Assembly: GCA_947624295.1 (NCBI GenBank)
Contig: CANQJV010000001.1
Location: forward strand, 1-64,000
Reading direction: 5' to 3'
DNA length: 64,000 nucleotides
From: an uncultured Ruminococcus sp.
Lineage (GTDB): Bacteria > Bacillota > Clostridia > Oscillospirales > Ruminococcaceae
Shown here: in pieces, positions 1,653 to 64,000 of the stretch
Layout: every line of letters begins with the position of its first letter
How positions within the stretch are numbered: the first letter of the stretch is position 1
Notes under the pieces: model-generated
Seen by the model: the letters and a program-made list of their open reading frames with translations, nothing else
Databases searched by the model: none
What the model was told of the DNA's origin: nothing
Program-made: the position numbers and the translations under genes

Positions 1653-1783
1653 ACTTAATCCCTCGCTTTCAATTATATACTCTACGCTGTTGCAAAGTAT
1701 CCAAAGAATGCTGAACAGAAAATTCGGGTGAGGAAGATGACGGATTTTATGTCAGTATTACCGGATAGTTTGTAACAGCGGAG

Positions 1784-1814
1784 AGTATTAACAAATACAT
1801 AATTTGTTAATACT
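1784..1814. promoter_or_regulatory. 31-bp perfect palindrome at the GH5 transcription start (possible operator)
   Basis: AGTATTAACAAAT (1784-1796), 5-nt loop, ATTTGTTAATACT (1802-1814): 13 perfect pairs. It lies directly downstream of the -10 box and covers the expected start of transcription. That position suits a repressor operator or a 5' mRNA hairpin. Function is inferred from position only. Confidence 0.6.
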
Positions 1815-1815
1815 A

Positions 1816-1844
1816 ATTATAGCATACTCTCTGTAAATTTGCAA
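1816..1844 (-). promoter_or_regulatory. Promoter of the GH5/dockerin gene
   Basis: Read on the minus strand: TTGCAA (1844-1839), 17-nt spacer, TATAAT (1821-1816), with an extended -10 TGC. The start codon is about 155 nt downstream, so the mRNA has a long leader. Confidence 0.75.
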
Positions 1845-1932
1845 TAGTTTTGTTGAAATAAATATATAAAATATCTCAAAATAAATTGCCTGTTCTGCTT
1901 ATGAACTTTGTCAACATATTCCGCAAAAACAA

Positions 1933-2051
1933 ATGAGCCTCCTGTTGTGGAAGCTCATCTGCCATGATATAGGGATTATTGGGGATTTATAATTTAATGT
2001 TGGGGTAAACATTAAATTATCAAAAATAATGGACACCGGAATTTTTCCGGT
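1933..2051. other. Gene-free stretch with three hairpins between GH5 promoter and histidine kinase 3' end
   Basis: No open reading frame with a ribosome binding site was found. Three inverted repeats lie in a row. 1933-1958 pairs ATGAGC with GCTCAT. 1989-2020 is a perfect 13-bp stem (ATAATTTAATGTT with its complement) closed by loop GGGGTA. 2035-2051 is a 7-bp stem ACCGGAA with loop TTT, followed on the plus strand by an AT-rich run. They could be terminators, operators or parts of a small RNA; no clear promoter for an RNA was found. Confidence 0.4.
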
Positions 2052-2087
2052 CAATTATTATTATACACTAAAATTATGAACATTGTG

Positions 2088-2107
2088 TTAAAAAGACGGC
2101 TTTTTAA
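2088..2107. terminator. Rho-independent terminator after the histidine kinase
   Basis: TTAAAAAG (2088-2095), loop ACGG, CTTTTTAA (2100-2107): an 8-bp stem just beyond the kinase stop codon, with T-rich arms. The stem is AT-rich, so moderate strength at best. Confidence 0.5.
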
Positions 2108-2128
2108 GTGCAAAATATTCTCAACATT

Positions 2129-3589
2129 TTATTCATTATTTTGTACATTTCTTACATCTTTGCTGTCGATTTTGAACCAGAATACAGAACCTTTCCCGAT
2201 AACGCTTTTCACGCCGTAATCGTAATTGTGCAATTTAAGCACTGCCTTGACTATCGAAAGTCCCAGACCTGTACCCACAACTTCACGCTTATGATTTTCA
2301 GAACGGTAATATTTATCGAAAATCAGCTTGATTTTATCAGGTTCAATACCGTCGCCCGTGTCCTCAACTTCAACCACAATTCCGTCAAGGCGGTTGATTT
2401 GGCGTACAAATACCTGCTTATCCTCGCCCGTGTAATTTATTGCGTTGTTTATGAGATTATATATTACCTGTTCAATTTTCACGACATCGCAATATACAAT
2501 GCGTTCCTCGTCAGGCGTAAAATGTACGCTGTAGCCCATTTTTTCGGATATTCCCTTGAATCTGTCAATTATTTCACTTAATTTGGAACTGATTTCAAAT
2601 TCAACAGGTTCAATTTTCTGCCGTCCGCTTTCAAGTTTTGATAAATCAAGAATATCATTCACCATAAGCGAAAGTCTGTCAGTTTCGTTGATGATTATTT
2701 CAAGATGTTCGTTTCTTTTTACGGGATTATCGCCCGATAAATCACGTATCATTTCAGCGTACGCTTTAAGCATTGTCAACGGTGTGCGTAAATCGTGCGA
2801 AACATTCGCTATCAAGTCTCTCTGCATTGTATCTACTCTTGACAACTCGTTTTCGGCGTAAGTAAGCGTATCAGCAAGTTGTTTTGCCTCTAAATAGCCT
2901 CTGCCGTCAAATTTCGTGTTGAAATTCCCTTTAGCAAGACTTTCCGCACCTACTGTTATTCTGTCAATCGGCTGTGCAATACGTTTCGAAACAAAAAGCG
3001 ATACTATAAATGCAAAGAAAATCAGGATAAACGTTATCATTATAAGTTGTCGTTTGATTATATCGACTGTAGACCCTACCGGAACAAGTGCCGTATTTAT
3101 GAACAAATAGCCGTCAGGATTATTTTTATCGCCTAAAGCACACCCAAACAGCACCATTGAGTAATTATTATGCGGGTCAGGGACTTTCAGCCATATAGGC
3201 TCGTTATTATTGTCAATAATTTTCTTCTGATAATTGTATATACTTTTACCTTTACCGTGAATAAGGCAGTCAACAGATGCTTCTTCCGTGTAGAGTGACC
3301 TGCCGTATTTATCGACAACTTCTATACAAAGGTCGTTTTCAATTGCTATATTGTCAATTCTTTTATTAAATTCAGAATTGCTGTCAACTCCGAACGCACT
3401 TATAATTTCCTCAGATGCCTTGTCAACATCGTGGATTTTCGAGTTTGTATAGAATTTCTCAAGGAAAAGTATCTGACAAAGCCAGAATATCAGGAATACT
3501 ATTATCGTGTACCCCATAAAATACAGCCATATACTGAATTTCAGCGGAATATGGTTGAATGCGCTGATTATTTTTTTAATTTGCTTCAA
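2129..3589 (-). CDS. Membrane-bound sensor histidine kinase
   Basis: Sensor kinase of a two-component system, 486 residues, of the PhoR/ResE-like architecture. Two membrane segments (about 20-43 and 182-200) enclose a roughly 140-residue extracytoplasmic sensor domain that I cannot assign to a named fold. A HAMP linker follows (about 201-255), then the dimerisation domain with phospho-accepting His265 in NVSHDLRTPL. The ATPase domain has the N box (NLINNAINY), DTGDGIEP and GTGLGLSIV. It overlaps the upstream response regulator by 14 nt, so the two are translationally coupled and form a pair. The signal is unknown. Confidence 0.93.
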   Translation of the reverse strand: MKQIKKIISAFNHIPLKFSIWLYFMGYTIIVFLIFWLCQILFLEKFYTNSKIHDVDKASEEIISAFGVDSNSEFNKRIDNIAIENDLCIEVVDKYGRSLYTEEASVDCLIHGKGKSIYNYQKKIIDNNNEPIWLKVPDPHNNYSMVLFGCALGDKNNPDGYLFINTALVPVGSTVDIIKRQLIMITFILIFFAFIVSLFVSKRIAQPIDRITVGAESLAKGNFNTKFDGRGYLEAKQLADTLTYAENELSRVDTMQRDLIANVSHDLRTPLTMLKAYAEMIRDLSGDNPVKRNEHLEIIINETDRLSLMVNDILDLSKLESGRQKIEPVEFEISSKLSEIIDRFKGISEKMGYSVHFTPDEERIVYCDVVKIEQVIYNLINNAINYTGEDKQVFVRQINRLDGIVVEVEDTGDGIEPDKIKLIFDKYYRSENHKREVVGTGLGLSIVKAVLKLHNYDYGVKSVIGKGSVFWFKIDSKDVRNVQNNE

Positions 3590-4253
3590 ATTTATATCCC
3601 ATTCCTCTTAATGTAACAATAAATTTCCTGTATTCACCTAAACTGTTGCGGAGCATTTTTATATGCGTGTCAACAGTCCTGTCATCGCCGAAAAAGTCAT
3701 ATCCCCATACTTCCTCAAGCAGTTGGTCACGGGAAAGCGCAATATTCTTGTTGCGGACAAGGAAAAACAACAGGTCATATTCTTTCGGTGTCATTGAGGC
3801 TTTTTCGCCGTTCACATAGACTTCCCTGCCGGCAATATCGACTTCCAGCCCATCAAATGTATACTTATCCTGTTTCGGAATATCGGGGTTTGCCTGATTC
3901 CTCTTGATGACGACTTTCACTCTCGCCATGAGTTCCTTCGGTGAAAACGGTTTCACAACGTAATCATCAACACCTATCTCAAAACCGAATAATTTGTCGT
4001 ATTCCTCACCTCTTGCGGACAGCATTATAACAGGGATATTCTTTGATTTGCGGATTTCCTTGCAAGCCGAATACCCGTCAAGGCGTGGCATCATAACGTC
4101 CATAATAATCAAATCATAATCGTTTTCATGGCATAAGTTCACTGCCTCCATACCGTTGCCTGCCTCAGTTACGTCGTATCCCTCAAATTCAGCGTATTCA
4201 CGGACAACTTTCCTTATATTGACTTCATCATCTACTATTAAAATATGTGCCAT
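3576..4253 (-). CDS. OmpR/PhoB-family response regulator
   Basis: DNA-binding response regulator, 225 residues, partner of the overlapping histidine kinase. The receiver domain (1-120) has the acidic pair Asp8/Asp9, the phosphorylation site Asp52 in IIMDVMMP and Lys101 in VVKPFSP. The C-terminal winged helix (about 130-224) has the typical MTPKEYDLLFFLVRN and VDTHIKMLR stretches. A GGAGG ribosome binding site lies just upstream of the ATG. The gene is transcribed away from an EAL phosphodiesterase gene across a 316-nt spacer that contains direct repeats, so the phosphodiesterase is a plausible target; this is inference. Confidence 0.95.
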   Translation of the reverse strand: MAHILIVDDEVNIRKVVREYAEFEGYDVTEAGNGMEAVNLCHENDYDLIIMDVMMPRLDGYSACKEIRKSKNIPVIMLSARGEEYDKLFGFEIGVDDYVVKPFSPKELMARVKVVIKRNQANPDIPKQDKYTFDGLEVDIAGREVYVNGEKASMTPKEYDLLFFLVRNKNIALSRDQLLEEVWGYDFFGDDRTVDTHIKMLRNSLGEYRKFIVTLRGMGYKFEAN

Positions 4254-19385: not shown

Positions 19386-19545
19386 TATAGTAACCCTACT
19401 TGGAAATCAAACAAGTTCACTGATAAAAATTTCCCATAGCTATGTTGTCGTCGTCACCGTGCGAAAGCACGCTTTCCTCCTCCGCCTTGCTATGAAAAAT
19501 TTTTATTAAGTTCCTTTTGTCCGATTCCCAAATAGGCTTACTATA
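19386..19545. mobile_element. MITE-like fold-back element in the riboflavin leader
   Basis: A 160-bp stretch with terminal inverted repeats. TATAGTAA (19386-19393) pairs with TTACTATA (19538-19545), and imperfect complementarity continues for about 55 nt per arm (19386-19440 with 19489-19545). An inner hairpin (CGTGC-GAAA-GCACG, about 19458-19471) caps it. No reading frame is present. The ends can be read as TA duplications around TAGTAA...TTACTA, which suits a non-autonomous element mobilised by a TA-targeting transposase such as the IS630/mariner group. It separates the operon promoter from the riboswitch. That it is mobile is inference; a second copy was not noticed in this window. Confidence 0.6.
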
Positions 19546-19547
19546 AA

Positions 19548-19657
19548 ATCTTCGAGGGCAGGGTGCAATTCCCTACCGACAGTTATAGTCTGTGAGCTTT
19601 TATGGCTGATTCTGCGAAATTCAGAAACCGACGGTTACAGTCCGGACGAAAGAAGAT
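19548..19657 (+). promoter_or_regulatory. FMN riboswitch (RFN element)
   Basis: The conserved RFN core is present: the closing stem ATCTTC (19548-19553) with GAAGAT (19652-19657), AGGGCAGGGTG, AATTCCCTACCGAC, GTCTGTGAGC, GAAACCGACGG and CAGTCCGGACGAAAGAAGA. It binds FMN and represses the downstream rib genes. AGTTATA (19581-19587) could pair with TATAACT (19664-19670) beyond the aptamer, a possible switching helix. The aptamer begins only 2 nt after the fold-back element. Confidence 0.97.
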
Positions 19658-19674
19658 ACTCAGTATAACTATGC

Positions 19675-61910: not shown

Positions 61911-61939
61911 TTGACTTTTTATAATAAACGTGATATAAT
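61911..61939 (+). promoter_or_regulatory. Promoter of the tandem RNA array
   Basis: TTGACT (61911-61916), 17-nt spacer, TATAAT (61934-61939), extended -10 TGA. The expected transcript start (about 61946) falls immediately before the first RNA unit at 61947. Confidence 0.88.
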
Positions 61940-61946
61940 ATACACA

Positions 61947-62046
61947 TGGCAGACGTTTCTGCGGTTTTTATGATAACTTCCTTTTATTCTATATGCTATA
62001 TGAAAATTATAAACCGTCAGAATGTGTGTTATCAGCTTGTCTGCTA
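61947..62046 (+). ncRNA. Tandem pseudoknotted RNA, unit 1
   Basis: P1: TGGCAGAC (61947-61954) with GTCTGCTA (62039-62046), one G-T wobble. P2: CGGTTT (61962-61967) with AAACCG (62011-62016), continued outward by TTCTG with CAGAA around a bulged T. Pseudoknot: GATAAC (61972-61977) with GTTATC (62028-62033). The core GATAACTTCCTTTTA is intact. I do not know an RNA family of this form. Confidence 0.8.
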
Positions 62047-62060
62047 TATTCAAAAAAAGA

Positions 62061-62161
62061 ACGGCAAACTTGTTTACAGCAGTTTCAGTAACCTCCTTAT
62101 AAAATGGTTTTCAATGTTTTTCATGTTGTCATGACTGTCTGTATGTATACTCGTTTGCCGT
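62061..62161 (+). ncRNA. Tandem pseudoknotted RNA, unit 2 (diverged core)
   Basis: P1: ACGGCAAAC (62061-62069) with GTTTGCCGT (62153-62161). P2: ACAGCAGT (62076-62083) with ACTG-T-CTGT (62134-62142), again with a bulged T. The core reads GTAACCTCCTTATA instead of the shared form, and the pseudoknot partner is GTATAC, which still pairs apart from a bulge. This is the most diverged unit. Confidence 0.7.
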
Positions 62162-62176
62162 CAAAATAAAAATATT

Positions 62177-62309
62177 TGGCAGACGTTTCTGCGGTCTTAA
62201 GCTGCTTTTTTATTAGGTTTATTTTATTATAGCTTGCCCGATAACTTCCTTTTAGGAGCTATACATAAAAAATTGACCGTCAGAATGTATGTTATCAGCC
62301 TGTCTGCCA
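62177..62309 (+). ncRNA. Tandem pseudoknotted RNA, unit 3
   Basis: P1: TGGCAGAC (62177-62184) with GTCTGCCA (62302-62309). P2: CGGTC (62192-62196) with GACCG (62275-62279), extended by TTCTG/CAGAA around a bulged T. Pseudoknot: GATAAC (62240-62245) with GTTATC (62291-62296). It has an insertion of about 35 nt between P2 and the core compared with unit 1. Confidence 0.8.
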
Positions 62310-62316
62310 TATAAAA

Positions 62317-62429
62317 ACGGCAAACGTATCCGTACAGCTTAACAGATAACTTCCTTTTACTTTAATAAGACTGAAAATCTTTATAATAAAAGTGCTGTAC
62401 AGACTGTATGTTATCGCACTGTTTGCCGT
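62317..62429 (+). ncRNA. Tandem pseudoknotted RNA, unit 4
   Basis: P1: ACGGCAAAC (62317-62325) with GTTTGCCGT (62421-62429). P2: GTACAGC (62332-62338) with GCTGTAC (62394-62400), unrelated in sequence to P2 of units 1 and 3 but perfectly paired. Pseudoknot: GATAAC (62345-62350) with GTTATC (62410-62415). Core intact. Confidence 0.8.
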
Positions 62430-62444
62430 AATAATGGAATCTTT

Positions 62445-62581
62445 AACAACGGCAAGCGTATCCGTATTGCTTAACAGATAACTTCCTTTTACTATTTTGA
62501 TCCACGCCGGAGTTGACTTTCGAGTCGCCGGTGCAAAAATCGCTGTATGGATTGTGTGTTATCGAACTGCTTGCCGTTGTT
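62445..62581 (+). ncRNA. Tandem pseudoknotted RNA, unit 5, with terminator-like closing stem
   Basis: P1 is extended to 13 bp: AACAACGGCAAGC (62445-62457) with GCTTGCCGTTGTT (62569-62581), and is followed by TTTT. P2: CCGTATTGC with GCTGTATGG, two wobbles and one mismatch. Pseudoknot: GATAAC (62477-62482) with GTTATC (62558-62563). Core intact. The variable inner arm holds a GC-rich hairpin with loop TTCG. The unit ends 24 nt before the downstream start codon and 11 nt before its GGAGGT site. Confidence 0.8.
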
Positions 62582-62605
62582 TTTTAATCTACGGAGGTGC
62601 ATATC

Positions 62606-64000
62606 ATGGAAAATAAAGTCGGCACACGCTTTGAGGAACTCCTTTTCTCTGAATTACGTCTCGTAAGCTACAGGGAATCAGACAAGGAACTTGACGAAAA
62701 TAATCTCATAAAAGCCGTGACAGTAAATGACGAACTCGTCAACATAGGCTATACACTTTCACCGAAAGATATTGTAAAATTAAGCCGCAGTGAAAATCTT
62801 GACGGTTTTTTTGAATATGTTAAAAGTCTTGTCGGAGAAGTCAAGGCGCACCCGTTATATCCCGATTTCCCGTCGCAAGTTATGAAATTAAGTGAAGCAC
62901 AATTCCGTTTCCACCAGATACTTCACTATATGTCAACTTACGGTATGGAGGAAATTATGGGCACTCCTGTTTCGAGAGGCTGGTTGCCTGAACCTGATGC
63001 ACCTGAGAAAACTAAAGAAGATGTAAAACTGCTTGAATCAAAAGTAATCGCACTTATCCCCGAAAACGAAATGTACATAAAAGCTGTATCAAAAGTCACC
63101 GGTAAATCAGAACGAATGACTGACAAAGAACTGCTTATTCTGAAACAAGCTGTAAGTTTCTGTACTCCCGAACAGCTTTCCGCAGTCCGTGTGCCTTTCA
63201 AGCAGAATCTCTTTGAACTTTTCTATTGTATTTTCGCAAACGAAAATCTTGACAGTGCAGGCAAAATAACTGCACTTAAATCGATATGTCAGCATACGGG
63301 CGATGTGTGGAAATGCATTGACTATACGCTGACAAGAAGTCACTATCATTTCAGGACTTCGCAGAAAAAAGTACTCGTGAAACTCCTTGAATCATATCCG
63401 GCGAAAGATTTCAGGGAAAATCTTGTTCTTTCGGACAAAAAAGCTGAGAGAATCAAGGTAATTCTGCCGTTTATCAGTTTTAACAGTTTCGCAGTGAATC
63501 CCGAACACAAAAAAGCTGTTGCTGATTTGAGGAACGGCGAACTTCGTTCATGGGCGAGTACTGCTGTTAAACTTATTAACTCAAATCCCGATGAGGCTAT
63601 TGATTTCATCGCAAAACGCCCCGGTGAACTTTTCCGTAAAATCAACTGGTTACTTAAAAAAGGCTGTTCAAAAGATAAACTTGAAAGCGCACTTGTTAAA
63701 AATGCTGACAAATTAAGTATACAGACTCTTGTTACGGTAATCAACAAATTCGGCGAAACTATAGGCAATTACAGCGGATTTGACCCGAATCAGCAATTCG
63801 AAAGCAAACCTGTTCGTTTTGATGATGATTTCGAGTACGGCGACGACTATACTGCGGAACAATTCAACAATTACAGGGAACAGGTTTCAAAGGAAATTGC
63901 CGAAAAAAATGAACGTGACCGCAAAAACAGGATTTCTTTCGAGGCAAAAAAAGCAGAAATAATTGAAACTCTTGACAGGGCGAAAAATATGTTCAGTATA
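62606..64000 (+). CDS. Large protein resembling the MXAN_6230/SCO0854 (Ter-associated) family, truncated by window edge
   Basis: ATG at 62606 with GGAGGT 7 nt upstream opens a frame of 465 codons with no stop before the window ends. The protein is alpha-helical, without signal peptide or membrane segment. A stretch containing GDVWKCIDYTLTRSHYHFR, then ELRSWASTAVKLINSNPDEA and AKRPGELFRKINWLL, recalls the RPGEL...LL pattern of MXAN_6230/SCO0854-type proteins found with tellurite-resistance (TerD/TerY) genes. The N-terminal RING finger of that family is not seen. From about residue 390 the sequence turns acidic, then a charged coiled coil. It is the only gene after the five-unit RNA array and may be controlled by it. 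Confidence 0.85.
   Translation, partial: MENKVGTRFEELLFSELRLVSYRESDKELDENNLIKAVTVNDELVNIGYTLSPKDIVKLSRSENLDGFFEYVKSLVGEVKAHPLYPDFPSQVMKLSEAQFRFHQILHYMSTYGMEEIMGTPVSRGWLPEPDAPEKTKEDVKLLESKVIALIPENEMYIKAVSKVTGKSERMTDKELLILKQAVSFCTPEQLSAVRVPFKQNLFELFYCIFANENLDSAGKITALKSICQHTGDVWKCIDYTLTRSHYHFRTSQKKVLVKLLESYPAKDFRENLVLSDKKAERIKVILPFISFNSFAVNPEHKKAVADLRNGELRSWASTAVKLINSNPDEAIDFIAKRPGELFRKINWLLKKGCSKDKLESALVKNADKLSIQTLVTVINKFGETIGNYSGFDPNQQFESKPVRFDDDFEYGDDYTAEQFNNYREQVSKEIAEKNERDRKNRISFEAKKAEIIETLDRAKNMFSI

Follow-up and report, generated by a model that had tools for sequence, protein, structure and literature searches.

A tandem array of structured RNA units beside the gene of a putative TerD-like protein in Ruminococcus, and related RNA in large phages

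Genes for Ro60 and its Y RNAs can sit in RNA repair operons controlled by RtcR. Pseudoknotted RNA repeats next to a gene for a protein are also the layout of type III toxin-antitoxin arrays, while OLE, GOLLD and ROOL are structured RNAs of bacteria and phages that are linked to a single protein or to tRNA regions of phages. PMC7790460 describes RtcR as controlling an RNA repair operon that comprises RtcB and RtcA, and PMC7824862 reports TROVE proteins in some jumbo phages, and also Ter systems. Here we analysed a stretch of 64,000 nucleotides from an uncultured Ruminococcus sp. (contig CANQJV010000001.1, positions 1 to 64,000; hereafter the window), near the end of which lies a tandem RNA array. 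Judged from sequence comparisons, the RNA travels with one little-studied, stress-type protein in gut bacteria, in relatives of Streptomyces and in very large phages; this suggests an RNA-protein machine of a new kind.

The array in the window and the protein encoded beside it

The original prediction described five tandem copies of an unrecognised pseudoknotted RNA, and the array was confirmed at that place: R1, a covariance model derived from four units of the window and three of one relative, returned five head-to-tail units on the + strand between positions 61946 and 62577 (Table 1). The promoter in front of them agrees with the consensus at 11 of 12 positions; a hairpin scan, in which long-range stems are not scored, returned no terminator at this array.

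Table 1. Features of the array and of the neighbouring gene (positions in the window)
Feature	Position	Strand	Remarks
Sigma-70-type promoter of the array, TTGACT-17 nt-TATAAT	61911..61939	+	ends 6 nt 5' of unit 1
RNA unit 1	61946..62047	+	R1 86.1 bits; P1 9/9 pairs; pseudoknot TGATAAC/GTTATCA
RNA unit 2, deviant core	62061..62161	+	R1 30.5 bits; P1 9/9 pairs; no core match
RNA unit 3, ~40 extra nt 5' of core	62176..62310	+	R1 51.8 bits; pseudoknot GATAAC/GTTATC
RNA unit 4	62317..62429	+	R1 91.5 bits; pseudoknot GATAAC/GTTATC
RNA unit 5, U tract after P1	62449..62577	+	R1 82.2 bits; GCTTGCCGT followed by TGTTTTTTAATC
U tract	62578..62585	+	with unit 5 P1, likely intrinsic terminator (read by eye); layout as in loci L008-L011
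GGAGG before the 732-aa ORF	62593-62597		
732-aa ORF, start	62606..64000	+	runs past the window to contig position 64804

The strands of the closing helix P1 change together in all five units, as had been claimed, being ATGGCAGAC/GTCTGCTAT in unit 1, ACGGCAAAC/GTTTGCCGT in units 2 and 4, TTGGCAGAC/GTCTGCCAT in unit 3 and ACGGCAAGC/GCTTGCCGT in unit 5. The second helix P2 and the GATAAC/GTTATC pseudoknot hold for units 1, 3, 4 and 5; unit 2, with the core GTAACCTCC and a distal GTATAC, retains P1, and P2 as judged by eye, and is without a clear 6-bp pseudoknot. The 15-mer GATAACTTCCTTTTA has four exact occurrences in the genome of the window, all within the array, and is absent in this exact form from the other 296 family genomes searched; as this search matched only the window's own copies, covariance models were required to find relatives. 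The core CUUCCUUUUA (window 61972-61986, and other cores) may resemble the anti-Shine-Dalgarno tail of 16S rRNA.

Rfam, a search of which had been proposed along with the prediction, agrees that the RNA is unrecognised. Rfam 15 at gathering thresholds returned for the whole window only an FMN riboswitch and tRNA, both outside the array, and at E up to 10 it gave only unrelated chance matches over the array; likewise, no match to the unit itself was obtained over locus L005 and 25 further loci. Matches across the window and all these loci were to the FMN riboswitch, tRNA, tRNA-Sec, tmRNA types and GOLLD, and an ordinary tRNA was located within the loop of one unit (L159:3424-3494). The FMN riboswitch of the window (RF00050) occupies positions 19544-19661 with 96.7 bits. 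Literature searches gave a comparable picture: no open-access paper naming SCO0854 or MXAN_6230 was found, nor any work combining Ruminococcus, riboswitch candidates, pseudoknot and tandem. Among the matches listed for TerD with TROVE, for TerD, RING, HEAT and noncoding RNA, and for permuted phage tRNA, this RNA was absent from titles and abstract openings, and it was absent as well among the matches listed for the core letters, huge phages, noncoding RNA, Y RNA and Ro60. The array units belong to an undescribed RNA family.

The 732-aa protein matches NCBIfam NF041916 (the MXAN_6230/SCO0854 RING family) with 62 bits (E 3.3e-17), as do all 12 homologs tested (best 4.5e-21), all of them far below the curated cut-off of 600 bits; on these profile scores the window protein is a distant MXAN_6230/SCO0854 relative and not an equivalog. 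Protein size across homologs is about 670-735 aa. Pfam gave no convincing domain in the 12 homologs, TerD (PF02342) included, although hhalign aligned the C-terminal part with TerD over 115 columns at 71% probability (E 3.7e-5), versus 22% for the whole protein in the profile-profile comparison; some relatives are annotated 'TerD family protein'. The N-terminal part is helical and HEAT-like as judged by eye only. Domain and profile searches detected no RNA-binding domain of a known kind in the protein, and neither profile searches of solved structures nor PADLOC returned a match. The genome of the window also carries a cluster with seven TerD-domain matches (G000:C19:12307-21729), separate from the array-linked protein.

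Covariation, position and transcription signals of the arrays in relatives

Compensating changes among the window units had been taken as evidence of selected RNA structure, and this reading is supported by the homologs, which covary both in a 24-unit alignment and in a fixed-register test of the pseudoknot. The alignment joins the five window units to 19 units from relatives; its fitting used P1 and P2 and left the pseudoknot aside. Over P1, P2 and pseudoknot together a standard pair occupies 93.8% of the cells, both sides are changed in 20 of 25 pairs, and none of 500 shuffles attained any of these measures. The pseudoknot test, which involved no fitting, set the six bases 5' of the core against the six that lie at a constant spacing from the P1 3' strand; its input was 66 model hits, from which two reverse-strand artefacts were removed to leave 64, and window unit 2, being coreless, to leave 63. 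At least 5 of 6 pairs formed in 61 of these 63 units with letters varying, compared with a mean of 40.7 and a maximum of 50 in 2000 shuffles, and other registers reached at most 7.

It is the other genera that supply the signal of this test: 37 of their 39 units reach 5 or more of the 6 pairs, compared with no more than 27 in the shuffles. Pseudoknot letters are near-invariant within the window's genus, where shuffles also attain the count of 24/24 and the sole excess is in the fraction paired (0.993 vs at most 0.979). Strand pairs include UAAC/GUUA, UGAC/GUCA, CAGC/GCUG, GGAC/GUCC and AAGC/GCUU. The core of the Ruminococcaceae form is N-U-M-C-U-U-U-U-R, and its units are mostly 80-140 nt long. 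P2 lies between the two strands, so that their pairing makes a pseudoknot. The pseudoknot characterises the Ruminococcaceae form; in the phage units folded, the equivalent helix is nested in P1.

The presence of the RNA was compared with that of the protein genome by genome. Among 396 family genomes, the protein profile A7 matches 15 and the RNA model R2 matches 13, and all 10 genomes with a strong R2 match (E below 1e-4) are among the 15 with the protein. Weak R2 matches in L065, L067 and L068 were discarded as false, since they lack the core and their genomes lack the protein. A further model, R3, found the RNA in 19 of 19 protein-bearing genomes of the window's family, a count that is not model-independent, R3 having been trained on units beside or with most of these genes; the RNA of genome G443 was outside the training set and lies on a contig other than that of the gene. 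Forty protein-less genomes of the same and neighbouring genera gave no match with either R3 or A7. In 345 genomes of the order, A7 matches only the window's genome and, weakly, G710, where a wider profile recognises a full homolog (E 1e-186) preceded by two phage-form cores at distances of 255 and 339 nt. Closer to the window, residues 1-465 of the 732-aa ORF match a sequence of 66% identity in a single further genome (60 genomes of the genus), with four RNA units 5' of it, and a protein-based scan of the genomes of 84,980 species returned five loci including this one, all of them from Ruminococcus and all five with units.

Relatives commonly carry the units in tandem (at least two were detected in 21 of 26 arrays mapped), and single-unit loci exist as well. 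Seven loci carry the array 5' of the protein gene (the window, L008, L009, L010, L011, L064 and L084), and 12 carry it 3' of the gene on the same strand (L012, L056, L057, L058, L061, L066, L085, L086, L087, L089, L091 and L118, the last being a viral contig). Arrays lie apart from the gene in L055 and L059, as does a single unit in L062, and those of L060 and L063 are on contigs other than that of the protein gene. In L012 the three units are flanked by the protein gene on one side and on the other by a gene named by eye as CPBP-like. In three genomes which also have the main array, RNA copies that look like leaders were seen between msmX-like ABC ATPase and M20-peptidase-like genes, both identified by eye (L035:6215-6494, L036:5748-6027 and L037:5915-6050).

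In 13 of 25 arrays the 70 nt 5' of unit 1 contain a sigma-70 match that agrees at 11 or more of 12 positions, versus 0.6% of a background of 1000 random 70-nt windows. At a score of at least 9 the figures are 19 of 25 versus 5%, and six arrays are without a match at 8 or more; a score of at least 10 was seen in 1 of 44 internal units. Among the arrays that follow the gene, 6 of the 11 scored reach at least 11 (L012, L057, L058, L061, L085 and L086), and 9 of 11 have a hairpin with a U tract, starting 10-14 nt past the last unit in six and inside it in three; the terminator scan found none in L056 and L089. These signals give many arrays the appearance of independent transcription units, often without a downstream gene to control.

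Taken with the structure, its covariation, the co-occurrence and the related RNA beside distant homologs (see below), which are the points that sequence supports, these signals make it probable, in our judgement, that the array RNA is a dedicated noncoding RNA partner of the neighbouring protein. The original prediction hinted instead at tandem riboswitches. Under that reading, or that of a tandem attenuator, P1 of the last unit and the U tract would form a ligand-set terminator controlling the downstream gene; the order of last-unit P1, T run and ORF in the window and four related arrays would fit, and so would the similar layout at the three msmX/M20-peptidase-like loci. However, the 5'-leader position, true of the seven gene-linked loci listed first, is false of the 12 others, in seven of which (L056, L057, L058, L061, L085, L086 and L087) the next gene past the array is on the opposite strand. 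A separate hairpin and U tract, moreover, follows 10-29 nt past the last unit in 11 of 25 arrays, in a scan run without a shuffled control. The leader model accounts neither for arrays 3' of the gene with a promoter and terminator of their own, nor for distant arrays, nor for the link of the RNA to one protein from genome to genome, all of which a dedicated RNA partner would explain; the array RNA is probably not a riboswitch, and we give this reading a low probability.

Autoregulation would have the protein bind units in its own and a few other mRNAs, acting on stability or translation, with no role for the RNA itself. Same-strand adjacency, co-occurrence and the extra copies near other genes agree with it, yet we hold it to be improbable: in the six arrays following the gene with a score of at least 11 the strong promoter is directly 5' of unit 1, so that these arrays need not belong to an mRNA, and the arrays of L055 and L059 are away from the gene. 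A type III toxin-antitoxin-like pair, in which the protein would be kept inactive by the pseudoknotted repeats beside its gene, is very unlikely, since despite the ToxIN-type order of promoter, tandem pseudoknotted repeats, terminator and ORF in the window, the protein has the size given above and has no Pfam or PADLOC match to a toxin family (ToxN/AbiQ, CptN or TenpN type), the units have the lengths given above, gene order is often reversed and single-unit loci occur.

Related RNA in phages, actinobacteria and other records

A search of IMG/VR with the protein profile gave 73 loci, with 31 contigs longer than 100 kb, the longest of 485 kb. Identities of these homologs are mostly 20-37%; that of L118 is 51%, and its contig bears three Ruminococcaceae-form units 3' of the protein gene. 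The gap upstream of the viral protein gene has a median of 208 nt versus 18 nt for other gaps (39 scored, 42 loci). Genes for tRNA account for part of the longer upstream gaps, and a related element was present in 16 of the 17 long gaps inspected, L174 holding tRNA-like sequence only. In layout the phage element comprises a helix closing on GG..CC, then GGCYAU, a second helix and UCCUUCUA.

The phage-form core TTCCTTCTA (UUCCUUCUA) was counted over 74 loci, namely 72 of the 73 IMG/VR loci, phage XacN1 and a Streptomyces plasmid. It has 147 copies on the gene strand versus 6 on the opposite one, with ~2.9 expected per strand; gene-strand copies are found in 61 of the 74 loci, and several of the 13 without one have a near variant. 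After removal of near-duplicate loci, 114 distinct phage-form units from 47 loci remained, and 61 of the 114 have a six-base partner of the strand 5' of the core, versus a mean of 10.2 and a maximum of 19 in swapped controls. A set widened with the actinobacterial, Variovorax and MT835874 loci had 149 distinct TTCCTTCT places, of which 29 without a GGCYAU-like motif were dropped to leave 120. P1 pairing is present in 96 of these 120 units (swapped mean 30.6, maximum 47); P1 and a plain five-base second helix occur together in 59, with diverse letter pairs, and not in the other 61. The four phage units that were folded have the second helix nested in P1 and no pseudoknot. We infer that the phage and Ruminococcaceae forms are related, since they share the core, a helix that ends at it, a closing helix, an arrangement in arrays and a homologous protein encoded nearby. 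R3 reaches the phage form weakly (L177, E 0.013).

The association also appeared when the RNA was searched independently of the protein. A 23-base pattern, which represents one subtype of the phage RNA, was run over all IMG/VR contigs and retrieved 15 of them, all 15 encoding the protein: 12 were already on the protein list and the other three encode it with E below 1e-100. A pattern with incorrect spacing matched one viral contig, L193, with a single core and no protein within the 12 kb examined.

Among named records we examined 12, eight out of 30 plasmid records and four phages, and observed units near the gene in 8. The five actinobacterial plasmids examined (three from Streptomyces, one each from Kitasatospora and Embleya, out of 17 actinobacterial records) have one unit each, 86-304 nt upstream. 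Phage MT835874 has four cores, two of them with a 10-bp helix, Xanthomonas phage XacN1 has three, and Variovorax has two located 0.4-0.5 kb downstream of the gene, beyond a small ORF. No unit was seen beside the gene in Deinococcus KNUC1210 and Niallia. For Embleya, Niallia and MT835874 we guessed the ends of the gene, these records being unannotated there. Two phages were not counted: Weasels2, with a TCCTTTTTA core and a 6-bp helix, and RcXuper, whose core, close to a tmRNA and to a permuted tRNA-like stretch, lacks the second helix. In this Rhodobacter phage (L217:745-1270) an Rfam permuted-tmRNA match is followed by a TCCTTCTA core and the permuted tRNA-like stretch. Two neighbourhoods may be recorded besides. 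Plasmid 2 of Variovorax sp. WDL1 (L213) carries the MXAN_6230/SCO0854-type gene, annotated 'RING finger family 4', close to rtcR, the two together occupying 1-414 and 1737-3965; rtcR, annotated as an RNA-repair activator, is ~1.3 kb from the gene on the opposite strand. A GOLLD RNA (L172:7711-8177) lies ~0.7 kb past the protein gene on a viral contig, with tRNA genes around it.

Five phage units (L122:114, L122:264, L159:2934, L183:7105 and L186:4696) have loops resembling a circularly permuted tRNA, the core being followed by the 3' half of a tRNA, a short loop and the 5' half, with complementary acceptor strands adjacent to each other. Rfam finds no tmRNA at these five loops. A tRNA test on doubled loops flagged 9 of 206 cores, and five were accepted on visibly complementary adjacent acceptor strands; the reading rests on these visible stems because the control of the automatic test was leaky, 15 random starts having passed out of fewer than 600 tried in tRNA-rich loci. 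Flagged loops in L131, L153 and L180 were dropped as being on the opposite strand or ordinary tRNAs, and that of L177 as unclear. To our knowledge permuted tRNAs, if expressed, would be highly unusual for phages.

A possible RNA-protein particle and its relation to known systems

Our working model of the dedicated RNA partner goes on to infer transcription itself, protein binding, stoichiometry and function. The five units would be transcribed from their own promoter as one independent noncoding RNA, in which each unit is a module: the closing P1 is joined by a second helix that passes directly into the constant loop (UUCCUUUUA in the window, UUCCUUCUA in phages), from which a variable domain hangs. 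Recognition of the hub of P1, helix and core would fall to the protein, and probably to its helical N-terminal part, and the repeated units may serve to load several protein copies or to present several variable domains. By analogy with Ro60 and Y RNA, the most likely work of such a particle would be RNA surveillance or repair, or a part in stress or phage conflict.

A more specific version, which we put forward tentatively and consider possible rather than likely, is a bacterial and phage ribonucleoprotein independent of Ro60, built of a constant hub (P1, helix and UUCCUUYUR loop), the HEAT-like/TerD-like protein and exchangeable RNA domains; the permuted tRNA of phages, opened at the anticodon loop, would suit a system that makes, repairs or shields tRNAs attacked in phage conflict. 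Should the pairing of RNA and protein be real, it would add a widespread noncoding RNA family and provide a partner and a testable function for a protein known here only as MXAN_6230/SCO0854. It would represent a second Ro60-like RNA-protein particle, or one without a counterpart, common to gut Firmicutes, relatives of Streptomyces and large phages.

Compared with OLE, GOLLD and ROOL, the array RNA is likewise a structured RNA of bacteria and phages, and GOLLD itself is present in one phage locus here (L172), but it consists of small repeated modules instead of one large RNA, and its unit has no Rfam match. As in the type III toxin-antitoxin arrays ToxI, CptI and TenpI, pseudoknotted RNA repeats adjoin a gene for a protein, from which a likely terminator separates them in the window; the protein is a different one, however, the units are larger, the order is not fixed and the phage units folded have no pseudoknot.

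The resemblance to Ro60 (Rsr) with Y RNA of the YrlA type extends to a presumably transcribed noncoding RNA encoded beside a protein gene, the rtcR RNA-repair neighbour in one Variovorax locus and the presence in jumbo phages, and may extend to tRNA-like modules in some of the RNAs (the five phage units). What sets the array system apart is its UUCCUUYUR core, its arrays, the putatively TerD-like C-terminus of its protein and a unit foreign to Rfam. None of 12 homologs matches the TROVE domain (PF05731) at E up to 1, and no TROVE genes were found in 235 genomes of the order; since no TROVE domain was found, the array system was not filed as a Ro60 system. By analogy, Ro60 with its Y RNAs would be the nearest working model for this RNA and its protein.
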